Shown here piece by piece: positions 2 to 35,475 of a stretch of DNA of 35,642 nucleotides; the first letter of the stretch is position 1; every line of letters begins with the position of its first letter. This DNA is from an uncultured Campylobacterales bacterium. Its GTDB lineage: Bacteria > Campylobacterota > Campylobacteria > Campylobacterales > Arcobacteraceae. Location: the NCBI GenBank assembly GCA_947503785.1, contig CANNFB010000021.1, positions 1 to 35,642 on the forward strand. The letters run 5' to 3'. The notes under the pieces are model-generated. The model was not told the origin of the DNA. It was given only the letters and a program-made list of their open reading frames with translations, and searched no databases. The translations under genes were made by a program, and so were the position numbers.

Positions 2-2329
2 GCAACATTTAAAGTAAGAGCATTTGATGGAACAGATTATAGTTTAGAACATACAGTAAATGTAACAATTGAAGGTGTAACAGATACTTTATCAGGAACA
101 AGTGTTGATGGATATATCTCAGGTATGACAGTGTTAAGTGATTTAGATGGAGATAAAGTAGTAAGTGGTACAGAAACTAATACTCTTACTGATATTGCAG
201 GAAACTTTACACTAACAGGTGGTGATTTAAGTGGAACAGTTATAGGTTATGGTGGAACAGATATTTCAACAGGCTTATCTTTTGAAGGTATTTATAAAGC
301 ACCAGTAGGTTCAACAGTATTAAATCCAACAACAAGTTTATTAGTTGATTTAATGAATGAAGGTAAAACTTTAACAGAAGCAAAAACTCTAATTTATAAT
401 AACTTAGGTGTTGATTCAAGTGTAGATTTACTTTCAGATCCAATAGCAAGTGCAATAGACTCAACAAATTCAAGTGTTGTAGATAATTATGTAGCATATC
501 AAACACTAAATGTAGAAATCAATAATACAATTGGGCAATTAGCAGCAGCACTAGATGGAGCAAGTATAACAAGTGAAATAAATGCTTCAGATGTTATTTC
601 TCAAGAAATAGCAAAAATGCTTATAGCTAATAGTGTTGATCTAACAAATAGTACAGATGTAAATACATTAATTACAAATGTATTAACTACACTAGGTGGT
701 ACAATAGCAAATACTGTTCAATCTGATATTTCAGAAGTAATAGTAAATACAAATACTGCAATAATTAATTCAGGAACAGGAGCATCAAGTGCTCAAAATG
801 CATTTGAAAACTTAGCAAGAGTACAAATAGCAGCAGAAGAAACAGAAACTGAACTAGAAGTAGGTGTTGCAAATGGAAATACAACAGATGCAGTAAATAA
901 CTCAAGTGGAAGTGAATTTGAAGCTAGAGTAGATGAATCTACTGTAGGGTTTATCTCTCAAACACAAGCGACAAATGCTGCTCCAGTTATAAATAATGTA
1001 CATTCAATAACATCTAATGATGAGTTAGACTTTACTTATAATGGGCAACTTGATAATACTATTATGGATTCTAATATAAATGATACGTTTACTTATGATT
1101 GGGATTCTTCTAGTGTGACAATGAGCTTATCTTTAACAGGGTTAAGTAATTTAGATAGTATTTTGGAATTAAGAAGTGAAGCCTCTTTAAATGCTTTAAC
1201 ATCAGCTGCAATAGAATTAAAACCTATATTAATAGACTTTCTTGCAAATGGGAATGTTCTTGGATTAACAGCATTATCATCAGAGACAATAATGATTTCA
1301 AAATCATTGTTTTCAACATTAAATTCATTTAATACAGTAAATAGTGGATTATTAGATGAAGTTTTATCTTTAAAAGACTTCATTTTATTAAATAAAGATG
1401 CCTTAGTATCACAATCAACATTATCAAATGAAAATATTGTGCTACTTAGTGAAATATTATCTCCATCAAATATTACTGCAGTAAATAATTTAATAACATC
1501 TCTTGAAACTTTTAATACTAATAATCCAACATTTAAAACAATGGTTGAATCTATATTAGCAGACAATAATATCAGTCAAATAGAATTAGCAACATTAAAT
1601 CCAGTTATTTTAGCTCAAGTAGATTCTTTAAGATTAGAAGTTATAAGTATTTTAAATACTAATGCATCATTAATTAACTTAATTGATATTCAAGAAGTTC
1701 TTACAAAATTAACAGAAGTTATTGAAGTAGACCCAATTAACGGTGAAATTACTATCACAGCTAATGTTAATCACGTGGCAGCTGAAGCTATGATAAACAT
1801 TGATGAAAATACAGGAGAGTATAGTATCTTAAATCCATATTTTAATACACTTCCTGAGTCAACAAATGTTGAAGTTAACTTTGATTATAATGTTGAAGAT
1901 TCAACAAACAATACTAGTAATACAGCAAAAGCATCTATTTTAGTTACAAGTGATAATGTAAGTGATTTAGATGTAAGTCTTGATAATGGTATACTTTCAG
2001 CGTATGCTAATCAAGATATTAATATGTTAGAACTGCTTGAAAACTTTTCAAGTAACAATGAAGTTTCAGATATTGATTCAATTGATCTTACAAATGGTTC
2101 TCATATACTTTCAAATCTTACTATTGAAGACTTTGAAGAAATGGTATCCGATTCAGCATCAAATGAGTTATCTATAATGGGTGAAAATAACGATACTATT
2201 AAATTAGATTTAAATACATGGACAGCTGGTTCTGTGAATCAGGATGACTTTATTCCTTATGTTGCAAATGGTAGTTCAGATGTATTAACATTGTTAATAG
2301 AAAAAAATATTATAGTTGAAGATATTTAA
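2..2329 (+). CDS. C-terminal part of a giant type I-secreted repeat adhesin (5' end outside window)
   Basis: The frame is open from base 2, so the gene starts upstream of the window; about 775 C-terminal residues are visible. The fragment is rich in Thr, Ser, Asn, Asp and Val, contains no Cys, and opens with the end of a cadherin/Ig-like strand (VNVTIEG). An EF-hand-like acidic loop (DLDGDKVVSGTE, about residues 47-58) follows. A further Ig/VCBS-like segment starts near DTFTYDW but is interrupted by about 200 leucine-rich, probably helical residues before strands resume near EVDPINGEITI. The last 85 residues (IDLTNG...LSNL...LDLNTW...YVANGSSDVLTLLIE) resemble the C-terminal secretion-signal region of large type I-secreted adhesins. 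No classical GGxGxDxxx nonapeptides are visible. It probably works outside the cell in adhesion or biofilm formation, and is probably exported by the system at 30273-35475. Family assignment is by pattern, not by search. Confidence 0.8.
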   Translation, partial: ATFKVRAFDGTDYSLEHTVNVTIEGVTDTLSGTSVDGYISGMTVLSDLDGDKVVSGTETNTLTDIAGNFTLTGGDLSGTVIGYGGTDISTGLSFEGIYKAPVGSTVLNPTTSLLVDLMNEGKTLTEAKTLIYNNLGVDSSVDLLSDPIASAIDSTNSSVVDNYVAYQTLNVEINNTIGQLAAALDGASITSEINASDVISQEIAKMLIANSVDLTNSTDVNTLITNVLTTLGGTIANTVQSDISEVIVNTNTAIINSGTGASSAQNAFENLARVQIAAEETETELEVGVANGNTTDAVNNSSGSEFEARVDESTVGFISQTQATNAAPVINNVHSITSNDELDFTYNGQLDNTIMDSNINDTFTYDWDSSSVTMSLSLTGLSNLDSILELRSEASLNALTSAAIELKPILIDFLANGNVLGLTALSSETIMISKSLFSTLNSFNTVNSGLLDEVLSLKDFILLNKDALVSQSTLSNENIVLLSEILSPSNITAVNNLITSLETFNTNNPTFKTMVESILADNNISQIELATLNPVILAQVDSLRLEVISILNTNASLINLIDIQEVLTKLTEVIEVDPINGEITITANVNHVAAEAMINIDENTGEYSILNPYFNTLPESTNVEVNFDYNVEDSTNNTSNTAKASILVTSDNVSDLDVSLDNGILSAYANQDINMLELLENFSSNNEVSDIDSIDLTNGSHILSNLTIEDFEEMVSDSASNELSIMGENNDTIKLDLNTWTAGSVNQDDFIPYVANGSSDVLTLLIEKNIIVEDI

Positions 2330-6425: not shown

Positions 6426-6457
6426 CTATTTAATTATTCAAATATACGGAGATAATC

Positions 6458-6670
6458 ATGAAAAAAAATACAACTAATGAATCAAGAAGAGCTTTCTTAA
6501 AAAAAGCTGCTTATGTAGCACCAACAGTAATAGCACTCGGTGCAATTACTAATCCTGTAACATCTTCAGCAGCAAGTTGTACAGCAGCAAATCCTTGTAG
6601 TCAGCCTACTGATACAGGTTCAAGTAATTCAGGTAACAATGATGAAGGTGGATTTAAAGGCGCTTTTTAA
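6458..6670 (+). CDS. Small twin-arginine-signal peptide, candidate precursor/substrate of the adjacent modification genes
   Basis: This 70-residue protein carries a textbook twin-arginine motif S9-R-R-A-F-L-K15, a hydrophobic stretch (about residues 17-29) and a likely signal-peptidase site after Ala38 or Ala39. The predicted mature part is only about 31 residues, contains Cys41 and Cys47 (C-T-A-A-N-P-C), is rich in Ser, Thr, Asn and Gly, and ends GGFKGAF. The ATG has a good CGGAGA ribosome-binding site, stronger than that of the next gene, so it may be the most highly expressed gene of the operon. It is followed after 7 bases by an HPr-kinase-like gene, then PqqD-like and nucleotidyltransferase genes. 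I recognise no named family. The role as modified substrate is inference from size, gene order and the peptide-binding habit of PqqD domains; it could instead be an unrelated small exported protein. Confidence 0.75.
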   Translation: MKKNTTNESRRAFLKKAAYVAPTVIALGAITNPVTSSAASCTAANPCSQPTDTGSSNSGNNDEGGFKGAF

Positions 6671-6677
6671 TTAAATA

Positions 6678-7550
6678 ATGAAAGTTTTTAATTATTTAAT
6701 ACTTGATAAAGAAAACACTGCCCTAAATACTAATCATTATATTTTAACAGAAGAAGAATACCCTTCTGTTAATTTATCTTATGTTCTTATTCTTTATAAT
6801 AATCAATATAGAGAAGTACAAATTACAAGTAACAAATCTTTTGATAAAATAGAAAAAAATCAATATTTTAGTTTTGATGTAAAAGATGTATTATCATTTT
6901 TATTTAAAATTGGTACAAATACAATAATTCTTAAAAGAAAAGAAAAAGCCACTGATCTTTTGGTAGACTATTGGTTATATCATACTTTTTTACCTATTTT
7001 ACTCACCTTTGAAAATAAGTACTATTTTTTACATGCTGGTGCAGTTGAGATTGAGAGTAAATCAGTACTCTTTATAGCTGATTCTTTTGGTGGAAAATCA
7101 ACACTAACAGATTTTTTCATAAAAAAAGGTCATACTATGATTTCTGATGATAAAGTAGCTACTTTTGAAAAAGATGATAAAATATATGCTGTTCCTTCAT
7201 ATCCTTATCATAGACCATATCGAAAGATGGAAGATTTAGGTATTTTTGTAGAAAATTTTGCAAATAAAATAAAACCAATACATTGTATTTTTAATCTAAT
7301 AAAATCAGATGAAGAATCTAAAATAAAAATAGAGAAAATATCAGGAATAGAAAAGTTCAAAGCACTAAGATATGCAACTGATATAGATTTACCAGTACAT
7401 AAAGAATCAAGATTTAAATCAGTAACAAATATAGCAAATAAAGTATGTATTTACAATATCTCAATACCTTGGGATTTAGAAAGACTAGATGAAGTATATG
7501 GTAAAATATGTAAGTTTATAAAAAAGGAAGCAGATGAACTTAAACACTAA
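6678..7550 (+). CDS. HPr kinase (HprK)-related kinase
   Basis: This 290-residue protein resembles the C-terminal kinase half of HPr kinase/phosphorylase, as in the HprK-related proteins found beside PqqD-like genes. A LHAGAVE segment (near 118-124) leads into a P-loop A134-D-S-F-G-G139-K-S-T, where the first P-loop glycine is replaced by Ala. A following MISDDKV (154-160) matches the conserved Ser-Asp-Asp region of this family. Genuine HPr kinase would need a PTS context, which is absent here. By analogy with HprK-like kinases that phosphorylate lasso peptides in some Firmicutes, it may phosphorylate a peptide, here perhaps the product of 6458-6670. The start has no clear ribosome-binding site and lies 7 bases after the upstream stop, suggesting coupled translation. 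Substrate unknown. Confidence 0.8.
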   Translation: MKVFNYLILDKENTALNTNHYILTEEEYPSVNLSYVLILYNNQYREVQITSNKSFDKIEKNQYFSFDVKDVLSFLFKIGTNTIILKRKEKATDLLVDYWLYHTFLPILLTFENKYYFLHAGAVEIESKSVLFIADSFGGKSTLTDFFIKKGHTMISDDKVATFEKDDKIYAVPSYPYHRPYRKMEDLGIFVENFANKIKPIHCIFNLIKSDEESKIKIEKISGIEKFKALRYATDIDLPVHKESRFKSVTNIANKVCIYNISIPWDLERLDEVYGKICKFIKKEADELKH

Positions 7551-7809
7551 ATTATCTATACCAGATACACTTTTCTCACAAGAAGTAGATGACGAAACAA
7601 TAGTGCTAGATACTAATACTCAAGAATACTTTAACTTCACAGGAATTGGAAAAGTTATCTGGGATATGCTTATAGAAGAAAATACACTTGCTGAGATATA
7701 CGAAGAACTAAATGAGTTTATGGAAGTAGAATCAAAACAACTAGAAAATGACATCTTAACTTTTGTAAAATCTTTAAATGATAGTAATCTTGTTGTTATT
7801 GAAAGCTAG
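7534..7809 (+). CDS. PqqD-family protein (RiPP recognition element-like peptide chaperone)
   Basis: This 91-residue single-domain protein has the PqqD layout: a first strand with E-TIVLDTNTQEYFNFTGIG, then IWDMLIEENTLAEIYEEL and a C-terminal helix ending in L-NDSNLVVIE. PqqD and related RRE domains bind the leader of a ribosomal peptide and present it to modifying enzymes. No pqqA, B, C or E gene is nearby, so PQQ synthesis is not indicated. The gene overlaps the end of the kinase gene by 17 bases and has an AAGGAA ribosome-binding site, and the nucleotidyltransferase ATG follows its stop directly. It probably brings the small Tat-signal peptide to the kinase and/or nucleotidyltransferase; that link is inference. 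Confidence 0.85.
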   Translation: MNLNTKLSIPDTLFSQEVDDETIVLDTNTQEYFNFTGIGKVIWDMLIEENTLAEIYEELNEFMEVESKQLENDILTFVKSLNDSNLVVIES

Positions 7810-8955
7810 ATGAAATTAGAAGAATTAAAGCTTTCAACAGATTTATTAATTATAATAGAGTGTTGTAAAAATAATCCATCTGAAGATAAAATAAATAACT
7901 ATACAATAAAAATAAAAGATTGGAATAGTTTTATATATAAAGTAGGATCTCATGGAGTATTACCTTTAGTTTATAAATCATTAAAAGTACTTAATGACCC
8001 ATCTGTTCCTCCTTTTGTAATATCTAAATTAAAAGATAATTATTTTAAAATAGCTAAAGATAATATGCTTTTAAGCTCAGAACTTATAAAAATTTCTAAA
8101 CTATTTGATCTTAATAATATTAGGTACATTAATTTTAAAGGACCTACCTTATCTTACTCAGCTTATGGAGATATAACATTAAGACAGTATTGTGATTTAG
8201 ATATATTAGTTGAATCAAAAGAGAAATCTAAAATAAGTAAAATATTAAAAAATATTGGATATCAAAATGAACATTTATATTTAAAAGAACCAGAGTATGT
8301 AAATATAAAAGTCATAACATTTTTTAATAAAGATCTAGGAACAACTATTGAAATACATTTTGAACTTATATCAAAGACATATGCAATAAATTTAAATGGT
8401 ATAAATCTTTTTAAAAAAACTAGTATTCTTGATCTTAATAAAACTAATATCAAGATTTTTAAAAAAGAATTTCTTTTTATCTATCTTTGTCTTCATGGGT
8501 CAAAGCATATTTATGAAAGAGTATCTTGGATTTGTGATATTAATAAACTATTAATAGATAAAACTATTAATTGGAAGTTAGTAATAAAATATGCTAAAAG
8601 TATAAATATTGAAAGAACAATACTTTCTTCTATTTATTTAGCTTCTATGACTTTTGATACTAAATTACCTACTATTCTAACAGTTGATATAAATAGAGAT
8701 CAAAAAGTTATATTTATTGCAGATAATATATTAGTATCTTTAGATACTAATAATAAAATGTCATTAAATTCTTTACGGATATTACTAAGTCAACGAAGAG
8801 GTATTTATAATAAAATAAATCTTCTATTTAAGTCTATATTTCAAGTTAAAGATACAGATATTCAATCAATAAAGCTTCCCCAAAATTTATATTTTATATA
8901 TGTTTTTATACGACCTTTTCGGTTAATTTTTAAAAAATTATTTAACAAAAAATAA
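7810..8955 (+). CDS. Nucleotidyltransferase-fold protein (NTP_transf_5-like)
   Basis: This 381-residue protein has the pattern of the uncharacterised nucleotidyltransferase family often found next to HprK-like and PqqD-like genes. The core is F108-K-G-P followed by TLRQYC and D129-L-D131-ILV, the expected paired metal-binding aspartates of the pol-beta nucleotidyltransferase fold. A later third acidic residue is plausible in the EIHFEL segment. The C-terminal half is helical and basic. The ATG follows the PqqD-like stop codon with no gap, so the two are translationally linked. It could transfer a nucleotide to a peptide, protein or small molecule; the substrate is unknown. It is the last gene of the operon and converges with the VanZ-like gene. 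Confidence 0.78.
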   Translation: MKLEELKLSTDLLIIIECCKNNPSEDKINNYTIKIKDWNSFIYKVGSHGVLPLVYKSLKVLNDPSVPPFVISKLKDNYFKIAKDNMLLSSELIKISKLFDLNNIRYINFKGPTLSYSAYGDITLRQYCDLDILVESKEKSKISKILKNIGYQNEHLYLKEPEYVNIKVITFFNKDLGTTIEIHFELISKTYAINLNGINLFKKTSILDLNKTNIKIFKKEFLFIYLCLHGSKHIYERVSWICDINKLLIDKTINWKLVIKYAKSINIERTILSSIYLASMTFDTKLPTILTVDINRDQKVIFIADNILVSLDTNNKMSLNSLRILLSQRRGIYNKINLLFKSIFQVKDTDIQSIKLPQNLYFIYVFIRPFRLIFKKLFNKK

Positions 8956-8992: not shown

Positions 8993-9322
8993 TTATGAAT
9001 TTATATGTATGTTTTTTATAAAATAACTCAGTATAAAATAAAAGACGACTCCAGTCAAACCAGCAAGAAAATCAATAAAACTAGCTTCTCTTCCTATAAA
9101 TGACTGAACTACTTCAATTAGTACAGCAAAGAAAGCCAATATAAGAATAATATATATATTATTAGTACCTTCAAAACTTTTATAAAAGAGAAATGAAAGA
9201 ATAAAAAATGCTATAAAATGTTTAATCTTATCTGCACCTTCAAATAAATAAGGATTTATAAAAGTAGAGTTAAATGAAATATAAATAATCAACCCCAATA
9301 CTAAGATAAGCATATATTTCAT
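8993..9322 (-). CDS. VanZ-like small membrane protein
   Basis: This 109-residue, four-helix membrane protein has VanZ-family signatures: DKIKHFIAFFILSFL in the middle and EVVQSFIGREASFIDFLAGLTG towards the C-terminus. VanZ-like proteins of unknown biochemical function recur at the ends of exopolysaccharide operons. Its start overlaps the stop of the upstream glycosyltransferase by four bases (ATGA), making it the last gene of the long minus-strand operon. No specific role can be read from the sequence. Confidence 0.8.
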   Translation of the reverse strand: MKYMLILVLGLIIYISFNSTFINPYLFEGADKIKHFIAFFILSFLFYKSFEGTNNIYIILILAFFAVLIEVVQSFIGREASFIDFLAGLTGVVFYFILSYFIKNIHINS

Positions 9323-15117: not shown

Positions 15118-16869
15118 TCATCCACTGATCTCTTTATCTTTAAAGTAATTTTTATAAACTGATAATAAAGTTAACACTTGTGTTTTCTCTCCAGTAGAAC
15201 CATCTTCATACATTCTTATCATATCATTTTTTAATGAAATATCTTCAATTTTAAATATAGCATCTCTATAATATGAATCCATATATTCTTTTAAATCATT
15301 GTTTTCATTATACCAATAATCAAATGGATTCATATGATGCTTTGTAGCAAATGCATTTTTAGATATTCCTACTTTTTTCATTAAATATTTGTATGTTTTA
15401 ATTAATAATGTATTAAGAGTAAAAGTTTTCCCTAATAAAGTATATACTTTTCTTTTGTTTTTTGTGATTTTTCTGCCATTATGAGCATACTTAGATGCAT
15501 CAGGATATTTTTTAAGAATCCATTTATCATATATATTATTATTTGATCTCATTTCTATAGGTATAGTTAAGCAAAATGTAAAAAAATCTAAATCAGAGAA
15601 GGGTGAATATGACTCTGTATATTCTTGAATGATGAGAGGAGAACCCATATTCATACCATTAAAACCTCGATTATAAAAAGTAAATATCTCTTGATTTTCA
15701 TGTTTTTCAATATTATAATTAGCCAAGCTCTTTTCAAACTCATTTATTAATTTGGTTGAATAAGCACCACTACTAATTATATTTGATTGATTATTGTTGA
15801 ATTTTTCTAAATATGTTCCAGTAAGTACATTTGCTAGCATGCCAGTGTGTATTATACCAACTTTTTTTAAGTCAAGAAACCTAAGCATATCCCATACTTG
15901 AGCTGGACCACCATACAATACTAATCCAGCTGTCTTTTCAAAGATTTCATCTATAAAGAAAAGTGATAAACCATTATCTAGAGGTTTAAATATTAAATTT
16001 GTTTTTAATTCAGCTGATATTTTTTTTGGAATAACTTCATCAAAATAATTTGATTGTGAATATGTAATATTTGTAATATCTTTCACTTTTTTTGATAAAA
16101 CCCAAGTAGCCATTCTTGAATCTAAGCCAGCACTTAATTGGGCATAATTTTTATAGCTATATTCATTATTTTTTCTTACAATTTTCTCAACTGCAATATT
16201 AAATAAATCATCAATTTTCTCAATTATTTGATCTTCTGTCATTTTATAGTTAGTATTACTTTTAAATAAATGATATCTAGATACAATTAATTTGTTATTT
16301 GAAATTTTTAAATAGCAACCTGCTTTTAAATGTTTAATTTCTTGAAATAAAGTTAGATCATCGATCATATATCCATGAGTTAATAAAGAATAAGCTCCTT
16401 TTTTATCTAATTTATATGATATATTGTTTTTTTTCATTAAATCTATTAAATATTTAATTTCTGATGAAAATAATATTTTACCATTATTTTCATAATAATA
16501 AATTTGCTTGCTAGCAATTTGATCTGTAAAAACACTTATATTATTATTAAGTTTAAAATAGATTACACCACTAAAAGAACCTCTAAAATTTTCAAAAAAA
16601 ATTGTATTATTTATTTCAATAAGATCAATTAAGGTTTCTTTCCAATTAGTTTTCTTGGATGCCATCATCAGTTCATCTTTATTTAAAATAACTCCTTCTA
16701 GAGCAAAAACATAATCTTTTGTTTCAAAAAATATTTTATCTTTTTCAAATTTTGGAATACTTCTTTTTTCTATTGATATATCTGTATTGATATATTTATT
16801 TGTTATTAAATCATCTTCATTTTCTAAATCTGAATTTCTAATATTAACTGTTCCTACAATACCTGACAT
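15118..16869 (-). CDS. Asparagine-synthetase-like amidotransferase with a degenerate glutaminase domain
   Basis: This 583-residue protein has the two-domain AsnB layout. The N-terminus reads MSGIVG, whereas AsnB enzymes start MCGI with Cys2 as the glutaminase nucleophile; here it is Ser (codon TCA). Other glutaminase positions are also altered: the usual NGEIYN segment reads EGVILN, and the RDxxGxKPLYY segment reads TDQIASKQIYY. The synthetase domain keeps a PP-loop, S246-A-G-L-D-S251, with Ala in place of the usual first Gly. Asparagine-synthetase homologues in O-antigen loci, such as WbpS of Pseudomonas aeruginosa O6, amidate uronic acids. Given the neighbouring uronate pathway, ATP-dependent amidation of a uronic acid using free ammonia is a reasonable guess. 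The start has an AAAGGA ribosome-binding site. Confidence 0.85.
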   Translation of the reverse strand: MSGIVGTVNIRNSDLENEDDLITNKYINTDISIEKRSIPKFEKDKIFFETKDYVFALEGVILNKDELMMASKKTNWKETLIDLIEINNTIFFENFRGSFSGVIYFKLNNNISVFTDQIASKQIYYYENNGKILFSSEIKYLIDLMKKNNISYKLDKKGAYSLLTHGYMIDDLTLFQEIKHLKAGCYLKISNNKLIVSRYHLFKSNTNYKMTEDQIIEKIDDLFNIAVEKIVRKNNEYSYKNYAQLSAGLDSRMATWVLSKKVKDITNITYSQSNYFDEVIPKKISAELKTNLIFKPLDNGLSLFFIDEIFEKTAGLVLYGGPAQVWDMLRFLDLKKVGIIHTGMLANVLTGTYLEKFNNNQSNIISSGAYSTKLINEFEKSLANYNIEKHENQEIFTFYNRGFNGMNMGSPLIIQEYTESYSPFSDLDFFTFCLTIPIEMRSNNNIYDKWILKKYPDASKYAHNGRKITKNKRKVYTLLGKTFTLNTLLIKTYKYLMKKVGISKNAFATKHHMNPFDYWYNENNDLKEYMDSYYRDAIFKIEDISLKNDMIRMYEDGSTGEKTQVLTLLSVYKNYFKDKEISG

Positions 16870-30272: not shown

Positions 30273-31916
30273 ATGAAAATTAGTAAGTATACATACAGTC
30301 TTCCAGTTTTAATGTTTCTTATGTCTTCTTTACAAGCAACATCTATAAAAGATGTAGTAGAACATACAGTTCAAAACAACGAAGATATAATTTCTAAATC
30401 TCTTAACAATAAGGCTTTTAGAAAATATATTGACGAACAAAAAGGTGGATATTATCCAAAACTAGATTTAACTGCGTATCTAGAAACAAAGAAAACAGTA
30501 GAAGATGGATTAACTGCTGCGGATACTAATCAAGATGGTTCTAATGTTCAACTAGATTTTGAACAACTAATTTATGATGGAAACTTAACACCAAGTAGAG
30601 TTGAAGAAGCAAAAGCTAGTTACGTATCAAATAAGCTTAAAAACTCTAGTGATGTAGAAACTATTCTTTTAGATTCTATTAATTCATATTTAGAAATGCT
30701 TCAATATGATGAAAGAGTTGCTAACTCAAAAGAAAATTTAAAAATTCATGAATCATACTTCTCAATTGCAAAAGAAACTGAAGCAATAAACGGTGAAATT
30801 TTAGATAAGATTCAAACAAAAGCAAAAATTCACTCTGCAAAAAGTAGCCTTTTTAATGAAATGAACAGCAAAAATGCAGCGAAAAGTTCATTCAACAAAA
30901 ATGTAGGTATGAAAATTACAAGTGATTTATGTAGACCTTCAATAGATGAGTCAAAGATTCCTGCAACTTTTGAAGACTTACAAAAAACAGCTCTTACTAC
31001 AAACTACCAAATCTTAGAAGCAATTGCAAATATCAAAGAACAAAAAGCAGTAATATCTCAAGAGAAATCAAACTTTCTACCTACATTAAAGTTTAAATTA
31101 CAAGGTATTTATGATAAAGATCTTTTAACAGATACTTTAGATACTAGTATTTATAGCGGAAAATTAGAACTTAAATACAATTTATTTAATGGATTAAGTG
31201 ATAGAAAAAGAACTCAAAGAGAAGAGCTATTTTTAAAAGAAGCACAATTAAAACTGGATTCAACTTCAAAATCAGTTCTAGATGAATTAAATGTAGCATA
31301 TACTACATATAATACTGCAAAAAAACAAATTGTAGAATTAAAACAATTTATAGAAGAAAATAAAACAATTATTGATATTTACAATGATCAGTTTGATGCA
31401 GGAACTAGAAACTTTATTGATGTATTAAATGTTGAAGCAGATTTATACAACTCTAAAACAAACTTAATCAATACAGAATTCGCTATGTATAAAGCATACT
31501 ATGAAATATTAAAAAATACTTCAACTTTACAAACTAGTATTGAAAACTCAAATGCTGGTACTTGTGCAGAAACTTCATCAAATTCTGTTGAAGAAGAATT
31601 AAACTTAAGTGATACAAATGTAGAAGAAAGTATTTCAGATGTTTTAGTTGAAGATGTAAAAACTGATGTTGTTGTAGCTGTAGCAAATGAATATGTATTA
31701 TTTATTGAATCATATACAAACAAAAACTCAGCAGAAAATGCATTATCTAAGCTAGCTTCTTACATAGATGAAAATACAAAATCAAAAGTAATTGCAAACA
31801 ACAATGGTACATATACTGTAGTTATTTACAATATTGATGGAAAATCTCAGGCTATTGCTATTAAAAATAAGCTAAACTCTAAATATCCAGGTTCATATTA
31901 CACGAAGAAGAAATAA
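30273..31916 (+). CDS. TolC/LapE-like outer-membrane efflux protein with C-terminal SPOR domain
   Basis: This 547-residue protein has a signal peptide (cleavage probable after LQA, residue 22) and the duplicated outer-membrane efflux protein layout of long helices and beta strands, about residues 25-420. Typical segments are GYYPKLDLTAYLE, KVNGE-like helix turns and LKYNLFNGLSDRKRTQ, then FDAGTRNFIDVLNVEADLYNSK. After an acidic linker (about 435-468) the last 75 residues (EYVLFIESYTNKNSAENALSK to the end) look like a SPOR peptidoglycan-binding domain, including NGTYTVVIYNIDGKSQA. It should form the outer-membrane duct for the ABC exporter encoded next, with the SPOR tail perhaps tethering it to septal or denuded peptidoglycan. 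It starts the three-gene operon. Confidence 0.85.
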   Translation: MKISKYTYSLPVLMFLMSSLQATSIKDVVEHTVQNNEDIISKSLNNKAFRKYIDEQKGGYYPKLDLTAYLETKKTVEDGLTAADTNQDGSNVQLDFEQLIYDGNLTPSRVEEAKASYVSNKLKNSSDVETILLDSINSYLEMLQYDERVANSKENLKIHESYFSIAKETEAINGEILDKIQTKAKIHSAKSSLFNEMNSKNAAKSSFNKNVGMKITSDLCRPSIDESKIPATFEDLQKTALTTNYQILEAIANIKEQKAVISQEKSNFLPTLKFKLQGIYDKDLLTDTLDTSIYSGKLELKYNLFNGLSDRKRTQREELFLKEAQLKLDSTSKSVLDELNVAYTTYNTAKKQIVELKQFIEENKTIIDIYNDQFDAGTRNFIDVLNVEADLYNSKTNLINTEFAMYKAYYEILKNTSTLQTSIENSNAGTCAETSSNSVEEELNLSDTNVEESISDVLVEDVKTDVVVAVANEYVLFIESYTNKNSAENALSKLASYIDENTKSKVIANNNGTYTVVIYNIDGKSQAIAIKNKLNSKYPGSYYTKKK

Positions 31917-31931
31917 TAAATAGGATAAATA

Positions 31932-34142
31932 TTGGAAATCAATCAAAATAATTTAAATGATGATTTTGAAAATATAAGAGAAAAAAATGAAGAAGATACT
32001 CTTTTAGAGTCTCTTCTTTTTTTATCTAAATTTCATAAACGAACAGCTTCCGCTGAATCCCTGATTGCAGGACTTGCAATCCACAACACCTTAATGACTC
32101 CCTCAATGTTTCAAAAATCTGCTAAAAAAATTGGTTTAATAGTAAAAGCAGTAAATAGAAAGCTTCAAGATATAGACAACAAAGCCTTACCTGCTGTTAT
32201 GATTTTAAATAACAACAAAGCTTGTATCGTTTTAAATGTAGACATTTCAAAAAATGAAGTCAAGCTTATAATACCGGATGTAAGTTCAGGTGAAATAACA
32301 CTTTCAATTGCTGAGCTAGAAAAATTATATACAGATAATTTATTTATTGTTAAACCTGCATACAATTTTGAAAATAGAGTAGATAAAGATGTCAAAGTTG
32401 AAGATACAAAAAGATGGTTTTGGCGAACAATGAAAAAAAATCTAGGCCTTTATAAGCTAGTAATAATAGCAGCTATCTTAATAAATATATTCGTAATCTT
32501 CGTTCCGTTATTTACAATGAATGTATATGATAGAGTTTTACCAAATAAAGCAATAGATACGTTATGGGTTTTATTAAGTGGAATAGTTTTCGTATTGATT
32601 TTTGATTTTATATTAAAATTAATCCGAGCATATTTTATAGAACAAGCAGGGAAAAGAGCAGATATAAGAATGTCTAGTAAGATATTTGATCAGCTATTAA
32701 ATATAAAATTAGACTCAAAACCTTCATCAACAGGTATGTTTGTAAGTAGGCTTCAATCCTTTGAAAGTGTAAGAGAGTTTTTTACAACAGCAACAGTTAC
32801 TGCCTTTGTTGATTTACCTTTTGTAATATTATTTATTTTTATCATCTTTTATGTAGGTGGCCCAATAGGTTATATCTCAATTGGAACAATGATAATAGCT
32901 GTGCTCTTCTCATTTTTTATGCAAAGACCAATTAAGAAAAACATCTTGAATTCTGCAAAAGAAGACCAGATAAAACAAACAGTTTTAACAGAAACAGTAA
33001 CAGGTTTAGAAATCATAAAATCTGTTCGTGCTCAAAATAGAATGAGAACACACTGGGAAAAATCAATCTCTCAAACTTCATACTATGGTAATAAGACACA
33101 CTATTTATCACAAATAGTTACATATTTTGTAGGTTTTATCTCACAACTTTCAGGAGTTTTAATAGTTGCAGGTGGAGTAATGCTTGCAAGTGAAGGTGAT
33201 ATGACTATGGGAGCAATTATTGCAGCTATGATGCTAAACTCAAGAGTAATAGGTCCTGTTTCTCAAATTGCTGGAATGATCATAAGACTAGATAGAACAA
33301 TGCTTTCTCTTAATAACATAGATGAAATCATGAAAATGCCAGTTGAAAGAGAGCAAAATCAAAACTATCTAAGTAGGCCAAATTTAGATGGAAATATTGT
33401 TTTCAAAGATGTAAATTTTGCATATAAAGGTCAAAAGTTTGATGTACTAAAAAATATAAACCTTACAATAAAAAAAGGTGAAAAAGTAGGAATTATAGGA
33501 AAAATAGGTTCAGGGAAATCTACCTTAGCTAAACTACTTCTAAACTTATACGAGCCATTAAAAGGGTCAGTATTAGTAGATAATACTGATATAAGACAAA
33601 TAGATCCTGTGGACTTAAGAAGATCAATCGGATACGTTCCACAAGAACCGTTTTTATTTATGGGAAGTATCAAAGACAATATCACGATAGGTGAACAGTA
33701 TGCAACAGATGAGCAAATACTAAAAGCCTCAAAAGTATCTGGTGTTCATGATTTTTTAGGAAAGCATGAATCAGGATATGATTTAATTGTAGGAGAAAGA
33801 GGAGAGGGCTTAAGTGGTGGAGAGAGACAGTCTGTTACTTTAGCTCGTGCAATTTTATCTGATCCAAATATTTTAGTACTAGATGAGCCTACTAATATGA
33901 TGGATGAATTATCCGAAAATACATTTAAAAGAAATCTAGTAAGTATAATAAGAGATAAAACAGTAATTATAGTAACCCACAAACCATCACTACTTTCAAT
34001 AGTAGATAGATTAATAGTGATAGAAGATGGAAAAGTAGTAGCAGATGGTCCAAAAGAAAAAATCGTAGCTTCTTTTGGAAATAAAGCTAAATCTACTAGC
34101 GCAATAAAAGCAACTAAAATAAAAAGAGTTCCAAATGAATAA
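31932..34142 (+). CDS. Type I secretion ABC transporter ATPase/permease (LapB-like)
   Basis: This 736-residue protein has a C39-peptidase-like N-terminal domain (about residues 20-145) without an obvious catalytic Cys, then a six-helix membrane domain (about 165-440) and an ABC ATPase domain. ATPase motifs are Walker A GKIGSGKST (523-531), signature LSGGERQ (near 627), Walker B ILVLDEP (near 647) and the H-loop VTHKPS (near 682). This matches the LapB/LssB type exporters of large adhesins. The start is TTG at 31932, with AGGA 6 bases upstream and no nearby ATG at the expected N-terminus. The stop overlaps the start of the adaptor gene. It powers export of an RTX-type adhesin across the inner membrane. 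Confidence 0.93.
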   Translation: MEINQNNLNDDFENIREKNEEDTLLESLLFLSKFHKRTASAESLIAGLAIHNTLMTPSMFQKSAKKIGLIVKAVNRKLQDIDNKALPAVMILNNNKACIVLNVDISKNEVKLIIPDVSSGEITLSIAELEKLYTDNLFIVKPAYNFENRVDKDVKVEDTKRWFWRTMKKNLGLYKLVIIAAILINIFVIFVPLFTMNVYDRVLPNKAIDTLWVLLSGIVFVLIFDFILKLIRAYFIEQAGKRADIRMSSKIFDQLLNIKLDSKPSSTGMFVSRLQSFESVREFFTTATVTAFVDLPFVILFIFIIFYVGGPIGYISIGTMIIAVLFSFFMQRPIKKNILNSAKEDQIKQTVLTETVTGLEIIKSVRAQNRMRTHWEKSISQTSYYGNKTHYLSQIVTYFVGFISQLSGVLIVAGGVMLASEGDMTMGAIIAAMMLNSRVIGPVSQIAGMIIRLDRTMLSLNNIDEIMKMPVEREQNQNYLSRPNLDGNIVFKDVNFAYKGQKFDVLKNINLTIKKGEKVGIIGKIGSGKSTLAKLLLNLYEPLKGSVLVDNTDIRQIDPVDLRRSIGYVPQEPFLFMGSIKDNITIGEQYATDEQILKASKVSGVHDFLGKHESGYDLIVGERGEGLSGGERQSVTLARAILSDPNILVLDEPTNMMDELSENTFKRNLVSIIRDKTVIIVTHKPSLLSIVDRLIVIEDGKVVADGPKEKIVASFGNKAKSTSAIKATKIKRVPNE

Positions 34143-35475
34143 TGAAGACGTAAACTTTGTAAATATGTTGCATGCACAAAAAAATGCAAAAGCAGACTTC
34201 AAAGTATTATTGCTATTTTTTTCAATAATTATTTTCTTTGCAGGTGCATTTATTTGGTCTTATTATTCGGAAATAGATGAACTTACAAGAGGAGAAGGTA
34301 AAGTAATACCTTCTGAAAAAATCAAAACAATTCAAAGTTTAGATGGTGGATTAATCTCAGAAATTTTAGTTAAAGAAGGTTCTATAGTAAAAATAGGTCA
34401 GCCTTTAATGAAAATCGATACTACAAGATTTGAAGCTTCACTAGAAGAAAATAAACAAACTTATTTTCATTTACTTGTTACCAAAATAAGACTTGATGCA
34501 GAATCAAAAATAGATTTATCAAAACCAATACCTGAATTAGAATTTCCTAAAGAAGTATTAAAAGAAGCAAATACATTCGCTCAAAATGATAAAAAACTTT
34601 TCAGATCAAGAATAGCAGAACTAAAAAGTACAACAGAAATTTTTAAAATACAACTAAAACAAAAAGAACAAGAAGTAAAAGAGCTAAGAAATACAAGTTC
34701 GCAATTAAGAAGAAATCTAAAGTTAGTAAAAGAAGAAGCTCAAACTATGGAACTCTTGGTAAAGAGAAGATCAAAATCTAAAGTTGACTTAATACGAATT
34801 AAGAAAGAGCTATCACAACTTCAAGGTGATTTACAAAGTACATATATAAATATTCCAAAAGCAAAATACGCAATGGAAGAAGCAAAAAATAGAATCAGTG
34901 AAAAAGCAAAAATTTTTAGAGCTGAAGCTTCAAATGAATTACAAAAACTAAACACTGAAATAAAAAAATACGAATCAAAACTTGTTTCAGAAGAAGATAA
35001 ACTTGAAAAAACAATCCTACACTCACCAGTAGATGGAATCGTAAAACAAATAAATGTTAATACTGTAGGTGGAGTAATCAAATCAGGAATGGAACTAATA
35101 GAAATCGTTCCACAAAGTGATACCTTGCTTATAGAAGCTAAAATAGATCCTAAAGATATAGCTTTTATAAATCCACAACAAAAGGCAATTATTAAAATAA
35201 CAGCTTATGATTTCTCAATATACGGTGGACTTGATGGACAAATAGTTGAGATTTCAGCAGATAGTATTCTAGATAAAAACGATAAAAATCAAAAGAGTTA
35301 CTATAAAGTAATGATAAAAACAAATCAAACTTACCTAGAAAAAAATGGAGATAAGCTTCCAATTATCCCAGGTATGATTACAAGTGTAGATATTATTACA
35401 GGTAAAAAATCAATCCTAGACTTCATTTTAAAACCTATATTAAAGACAAAACAAAACGCACTTCACGAAAGATAA
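34135..35475 (+). CDS. HlyD/LapC-like membrane fusion adaptor of type I secretion
   Basis: This 446-residue adaptor has a short cytoplasmic N-terminus, one membrane anchor (about residues 22-45, ending IWSYYSEIDELTRGEG), a biotinyl-lipoyl-like strand set (VIPSEKIKTIQSLDGGLI) and long coiled coils (about 80-300). The lipoyl half is completed by LHSPVDGIVKQINVNTVGG, then a beta-barrel with VPQSDTLLIEAKIDPKDIAFI and a final PGMITSVDIITGKKSILDFILKPI. All are HlyD-family features. It bridges the ATPase at 31932-34142 and the TolC-like duct. It overlaps the ATPase gene by eight bases and is the last gene before the terminator. Confidence 0.93.
   Translation: MNNEDVNFVNMLHAQKNAKADFKVLLLFFSIIIFFAGAFIWSYYSEIDELTRGEGKVIPSEKIKTIQSLDGGLISEILVKEGSIVKIGQPLMKIDTTRFEASLEENKQTYFHLLVTKIRLDAESKIDLSKPIPELEFPKEVLKEANTFAQNDKKLFRSRIAELKSTTEIFKIQLKQKEQEVKELRNTSSQLRRNLKLVKEEAQTMELLVKRRSKSKVDLIRIKKELSQLQGDLQSTYINIPKAKYAMEEAKNRISEKAKIFRAEASNELQKLNTEIKKYESKLVSEEDKLEKTILHSPVDGIVKQINVNTVGGVIKSGMELIEIVPQSDTLLIEAKIDPKDIAFINPQQKAIIKITAYDFSIYGGLDGQIVEISADSILDKNDKNQKSYYKVMIKTNQTYLEKNGDKLPIIPGMITSVDIITGKKSILDFILKPILKTKQNALHER

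Follow-up and report, generated by a model that had tools for sequence, protein, structure and literature searches.

The window analyzed here, the whole 35,642-nucleotide stretch of DNA from an uncultured Campylobacterales bacterium of the Arcobacteraceae, carries a four-gene cassette that we read, with a probability of roughly 0.68, as a RiPP-type pathway in which the Tat signal peptide of a small precursor doubles as the leader, a Gram-negative counterpart of the linear polyphosphorylated peptides (LPPs; Popov et al. 2026, PMC13381572). In the proposed route, the PqqD-like protein, acting as a RiPP recognition element (RRE), would bind a YxxPxV motif inside the hydrophobic region of the Tat signal and bring the precursor to an HprK-like kinase, which would phosphorylate, and perhaps polyphosphorylate, a Ser close to the mature N terminus (S40 in the window); a sugar or another group may subsequently be attached to the phosphate by the NTP_transf_5 protein. 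As long as the RRE is bound, the signal would be masked from TatBC, and after release Tat would export the peptide and signal peptidase I would cut after an AxA-type site. With export by Tat and leader removal by signal peptidase I, a dedicated leader peptidase and ABC exporter would be unneeded. All of the evidence is computational and comes from one phylum, Campylobacterota.

Gene content and setting of the cassette

The initial annotation had described four adjacent genes, encoding a Tat peptide, an HprK-like protein, a PqqD-like protein, and an NTP_transf_5 protein, and both their coordinates and their families were confirmed. All four lie nearly contiguously on the forward strand: the Tat peptide gene at 6458-6670, encoding a 70-aa precursor with a Tat signal and a mature part of about 31 aa; the HprK-like Ser kinase gene at 6678-7550 (290 aa); the PqqD-like gene, for a discrete RRE, at 7534-7809 (91 aa); and the NTP_transf_5 gene at 7810-8955 (381 aa), whose product has a nucleotidyltransferase fold. 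The first two genes are separated by 7 bp, the kinase and PqqD genes overlap by 17 bp, and the gap between the PqqD and NTP_transf_5 genes is 0 bp. A putative ribosome-binding site, GGAG (6448..6451, forward strand), lies 6 bases 5' of the ATG at 6458; promoter and terminator scans gave scores no better than those of shuffled sequence. The cassette is divergent from two genes, one wza-like and encoding a lipoprotein, the other wzc-like, and genes of a Wzx/Wzy-type capsule locus come after it. By alignment search, the nearest named kin of the window were Arcobacter, Aliarcobacter, and Campylobacteraceae records (L058-L060).

Several other genes of the window were recorded. A small VanZ-like membrane protein (8993-9322, reverse strand) adjoins the cassette, and small ORFs resembling it are found beside NTP_transf_5 at L047 and L049. 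The capsule locus includes an AsnB-like amidotransferase (15118-16869, reverse strand) whose scores against the models for asparagine synthase and lasso cyclase are far under cut-off. No lasso cyclase was found beside the precursor, the AsnB-like protein 6 kb away scoring 47 bits against a cut-off of 525. The nearest ABC gene in the window encodes a C39-type exporter (31932-34142) beside type I secretion genes, the whole set (an OEP with SPOR, the C39-type ABC exporter, and HlyD) spanning 30273-35475 on the forward strand. At the other end of the window, positions 125-2329 (forward strand) encode a 734-aa protein without a Pfam match.

The precursor and its Tat signal

The small Tat ORF is a coding gene: orthologues of 69 and 74 aa occur at the equivalent position in two relatives, their N and C termini are conserved, and the differences by codon position (8/8/22 and 16/10/30) are concentrated at third positions. 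Conserved C-terminal residues, which the initial annotation had anticipated, are indeed seen within the Arcobacter group; beyond it they are not, and it is the signal peptide itself that is conserved throughout. The precursor has an RRxFLK motif, a hydrophobic region, and an AxA-type cut, as in Tat substrates, and the genome has a Tat system; the score of the signal against TIGR01409 was 13.5, below the cut-off of 16.7. The stretch from the twin arginine R10 R11 to Gly28 (6485..6541, forward strand) contains the RRE-binding motif as Y19xxP22xV24xxxG28, in the register of lasso leaders. From the AxA-type rule and the family alignment, the cut is predicted after A38 or A39, which gives ASCTAANPCSQPTDTGSSNSGNNDEGGFKGAF as the predicted mature peptide (6572..6667, forward strand).

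At HprK-type loci of Campylobacterota, 48 distinct Tat peptides were collected; as the loci share descent, neither peptide nor locus counts represent independent events. Counted from the first Arg, the signal consensus is RRxFLKKxxYxAPxLxxLGxLxKPT, with K6, K7, Y10, P13, L18, G19, and P24 near invariant. The motif [YW]xxPx[LVIFAM] is present in 48 of 48, at R+9 in 44 and at R+8 in 4. Tyr thus stands at position 10 (9 in four peptides) and is replaced by Trp in a few signals; Pro follows at +3, Leu, Val, or Ile lies 2 residues beyond, and a Gly occurs four residues further on in nearly all peptides. Lasso and LPP RREs bind [Y/W]xxPx[L/V/I/F/A] in crystal structures (PMC13381572), and the Campylobacterota lasso precursors KKIYARPTLIEIGK, KKSYRQPQLKEIGK, KIYARPTLIEIGK, KSYRQPQLKEIGK, and KPYNKPELVEMGS show Y0-P3-L5-G9, the same register as the Tat peptides. 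By comparison, the leader motif occurred in 0 of 68 other Tat signals, taken as TIGR01409 matches in eight Tat-cluster genomes. Moreover, RR-type small ORFs directly upstream of HprK were also collected regardless of the motif, and since all 23 of these carry it, selection bias appears limited. Separately, second Tat/YxxP peptides with the repeat NNGxGNGDQxAPGNSxxHNxAEN were observed at four loci (L061:9304-9696, L062:9292-9747, L063:9265-9705, and L192:6007-6276); they gave no significant match to Pfam.

TatC and signal peptidase I were found in all eight Tat-cluster genomes tested. The B2-type peptidase was absent from seven of them, the eighth also carrying a lasso cluster, and the B2 leader peptidase (PF13471) was absent from the window genome. 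The LPP-type signal peptidase (TIGR02228) had no match in the cassette or the window genome and none over cut-off in the eight genomes. From these findings, the Tat signal seems to replace both a dedicated peptidase and an exporter. Counted from the first Arg, the cut is predicted to follow position 29, where Ala or Gly stands in 44 of 44 main-register peptides. Thus, the earlier remark that the operon has no peptidase is right for the cassette, and no dedicated one is required, signal peptidase I being available. Tat normally prefers folded cargo, and a peptide of about 30 residues would be unusually small cargo, which counts against the export step.

Proposed recognition and modification proteins

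The PqqD-like protein matched PF05402 with 44 bits, and its closest PDB relatives in a profile search were the lasso and LPP RREs TbiB1 (7.9e-16), PbaB1, TfuB1, and LppB. The match to true PQQ PqqD was far weaker (0.02 only), and a role in PQQ biosynthesis was rejected on this score. In LppB, D70 hydrogen-bonds the leader Tyr; this residue corresponds to D73 in the window and is Asp in 66 of 68 Campylobacterota RREs, while LppB F74 corresponds to F77 and is Phe in 64 of the 68. LppB N33 corresponds to Thr in the window protein. By profile and by pocket residues, the window PqqD appears to be a discrete RRE of the lasso/LPP class with its leader-binding residues kept, which lends support to the initial proposal that it would bind the leader. 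No co-variation between a Tyr or Trp leader and RRE residues was seen; the RREs of Trp-type genomes retain Asp. A PqqD gene was missing within 3 kb at 12 of 33 Tat loci, which counts against the dual-role reading. In one genome (G180), a lasso locus and a Tat peptide locus were found to have only one PqqD gene between them, so that one RRE may serve both. There is apparently one PqqD gene for several kinase loci in G180 and G060 (L136, L298).

The kinase is weak by sequence, its match to the HPr kinase C-terminal domain (PF07475, E 1.9e-5) falling under cut-off, and the best solved matches of its AlphaFold model (pLDDT 93) are HPr kinases (3tqf, E 8.5e-8). Lasso kinases have a characteristic His-Lys-Asp-Asp set (PMC9266682), which is present here as H119, K140 (P-loop), D157, and D158 and is invariant across 32 homologues. 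Fold and conserved residues alike favor the earlier suggestion that this protein is a modifying kinase, which would act by phosphorylation. The HPr-rel-A system (TIGR04352, TIGR04353) was considered and rejected, HprK_rel_A scoring 23 bits against a cut-off of 200 and TIGR04353 giving no match. In 33 of 48 peptides, a Ser occurs within mature positions 1 to 3, compared to a mean of 14.9 and a maximum of 27 in 5000 shuffles, with mature starts set by a simple cleavage rule and a count that small residues near the signal-peptidase cut may inflate. Ser occurs anywhere in the predicted mature part in 47 of 48 peptides, the L180 homologue having none. The LPP kinase phosphorylates LppA at core Ser3 (PMC13381572). 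Based on the Ser enrichment near the mature start and on LPP modification at Ser3, we predict S40 of the window peptide to be the likeliest phospho-acceptor.

The NTP_transf_5 protein matched PF14907 with 180 bits and has the invariant DxD as D129 and D131. In structure comparison, its fold was near those of MenT1, LnuA, and ANT(2'')-Ia and, more weakly, that of FKRP, which transfers ribitol phosphate. Its homologue PsmN has been tied to the attachment of a hexose to phospho-Ser (PMC9266682), and LppN was inactive in B. subtilis (PMC13381572); for these reasons, the nucleotidylation of the peptide put forward in the initial annotation was unsupported and was rejected as the main chemistry, and by analogy sugar addition appears likelier. 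Arcobacter, Sulfuricurvum, and a few other loci have the NTP gene close to the cassette, and most short-peptide loci lack it nearby; it is a looser part of the cassette. One NTP gene that seemed truncated (L005) is intact when read from another start.

Recurrence, known relatives, and rival explanations

A single-protein search of genome contigs gave no matches, and the alignment search found six loci. HprK profile matches were present in 22 of 397 Campylobacterota genomes; within two families, the profile then matched 57 of 175 and 16 of 151 genomes. Inspection of about 90 kinase loci together with their flanks showed mainly two kinds. Lasso loci carry a cyclase, a B2 peptidase, and an ABC exporter; in Tat loci, a small Tat ORF precedes the kinase, usually by 7-60 bases. 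The Tat-HprK-PqqD gene order recurs far outside the close kin of the window. Among loci with enough flank, 27 were Tat only, 25 lasso only, 1 both, and 11 neither (Fisher p 3e-8, kinship of loci ignored). At the one locus with both (L136), a lasso cluster immediately adjoins a Tat cassette; a lasso cyclase, leader peptidase, or ABC exporter lay within range at just 1 of 28 Tat loci. The check suggested with the initial annotation, whether the small Tat ORF recurs beside homologous clusters, came out in its favor, the ORF being present at 28 of 39 non-lasso HprK loci with enough flank. We consider the Tat peptide very likely to be the substrate that would be modified. Plasmid searches in other phyla returned mostly lasso-type clusters and no Tat peptide.

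Other observations concern the surveyed loci. Kinase-bearing lasso clusters are common in the examined Campylobacterota families (L134, L135, L138, L142, L145, L147, L154, L155, L158, L194, L195, and L204). In several short-peptide loci, a gene for a lipoprotein of about 260 aa lies directly upstream of the Tat peptide (L073:468-1250, L086:487-1266, and L088:2598-3377); no family was found for that of L073. A Shinella plasmid (L287:4968-7981) encodes a subtilisin-like peptidase, an 86-aa ORF, and a protein with a PqqD annotation and a match to the kinase as well; these may form a further peptide system.

The initial annotation had treated the kinase/PqqD/NTP set as undescribed, yet it is already the core of paeninodin-type lasso clusters and LPPs (PMC13381572), so that the Tat leader alone is undescribed. 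The enzymes are of known kinds; the Tat leader is new, and no report of a Tat signal as a RiPP leader was found in a literature search mostly covering journals outside subscription. Sec signals in RiPP precursors are known, and called rare (PMC12452194). Like the cassette, LPP clusters have a discrete RRE, an HprK-like kinase, an uncharacterised NTP transferase, no cyclase, a YxxP leader, variable cores, signal-peptidase-type leader removal, and locations in capsule loci. However, LPPs are reported only from Bacillota (PMC13381572), whereas the cassette belongs to Gram-negative Campylobacterota and lacks both the dedicated archaeal-type signal peptidase LppS and the MsbA-like exporter found in LPP clusters; furthermore, the non-Tat LPP leader reads YxxPxVLxHQxIxFETxxS, a consensus from which YVAPTVIALGAITNP in the window departs. 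Given these differences in signal peptidase, exporter, and leader, the cassette would work like an LPP system but is not one by definition.

Paeninodin/pseudomycoidin-type lasso systems (PadeK, ThcoK, PsmK, PsmN) also have a homologous kinase, RRE, and NTP protein, with 25%, 22%, and 26% identity, respectively, between the cassette and the paeninodin-type locus of Paenibacillus cellulosilyticus, and their leaders share the Y/WxxPx[LV] motif of the Tat signal. In contrast, the cyclase, B2 peptidase, and ABC exporter of lasso clusters are all missing from the cassette, and the residue that PadeK modifies is the C-terminal Ser, while the last residue of the window peptide is Phe. Bufferins and other MNIO RiPPs (PMC12452194) likewise have a signal peptide in place of the usual leader, but they use Sec rather than Tat and iron enzyme chemistry, and a lasso-type RRE motif is not reported in their signal. 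The Tat chaperones (REMPs) DmsD and TorD are small cytoplasmic proteins that bind the hydrophobic part of Tat signals before export (PMC3316669), as proposed for the RRE, although fold and motif are unrelated and their cargo is a cofactor enzyme rather than a peptide. Tentatively, and at slightly less than even odds, we suggest that the RRE serves as a quality-control chaperone for Tat export: it would retain the precursor in the cytoplasm pending modification by HprK, and perhaps by NTP_transf_5, and the finished peptide alone would then be exported and processed by the housekeeping signal peptidase, with a possible link to surface polysaccharide.

Two roles have been considered for the product, each lying downstream of the dual-leader route and compatible with it. 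The peptide might be a polymer-linked anchor, its phospho-Ser being glycosylated by NTP_transf_5 or capsule enzymes so that it carries or starts a surface glycan. The Arcobacter and Sulfuricurvum cassettes adjoin wza/wzc-type capsule export genes, LPPs of Bacilli are also in capsule loci (PMC13381572), and both the PsmN-linked hexose and the FKRP-like fold would suit such a role; nonetheless, short-peptide loci of another family lack the capsule context and usually a nearby NTP gene, and we regard an anchor as doubtful. A secreted signal or antimicrobial acting independently of the capsule seems similarly unlikely. In many homologues, the predicted mature part has 8-18 residues and is Pro-rich with a Trp near the C terminus (e.g., RNSVPGPPVW), and the cores are variable, as in secreted RiPPs, but the window peptide is longer, contains Cys, and lies in a capsule locus, and no immunity or receptor gene was identified.

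It is quite improbable that the cassette represents a decayed lasso cluster from which the cyclase, peptidase, and exporter have disappeared, with the Tat peptide as a secondary export rescue and a product without a conserved role. The kinase, RRE, and NTP families are the same as in lasso clusters, and Tat and lasso kinases are intermixed in the kinase tree (a quick tree with a distant outgroup), with Tat loci in at least two groups. Even so, the fixed signal-plus-motif architecture in 48 peptides across several families, the synonymous-biased change, the intact active sites, and the conserved gene order argue for selection. Least probable of all, the signal Tyr and Pro would serve Tat targeting only and the neighboring kinase would act on something else, which is at odds with the 68 other Tat signals that do without the motif and with the kept RRE pocket residues.

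In RiPPs, the leader and the export signal are normally distinct elements. A Tat signal with an RRE docking motif would join two recognition systems in about 20 residues, and such a dual signal would explain a RiPP without its own peptidase and exporter. The dual-leader reading would extend LPP-like phosphorylated-peptide pathways from Bacillota to Gram-negative bacteria. The pattern RRxFLKKxxYxAPxLxxLG can be used to search for further cases, and the cassette offers a direct test of whether RREs time Tat export.
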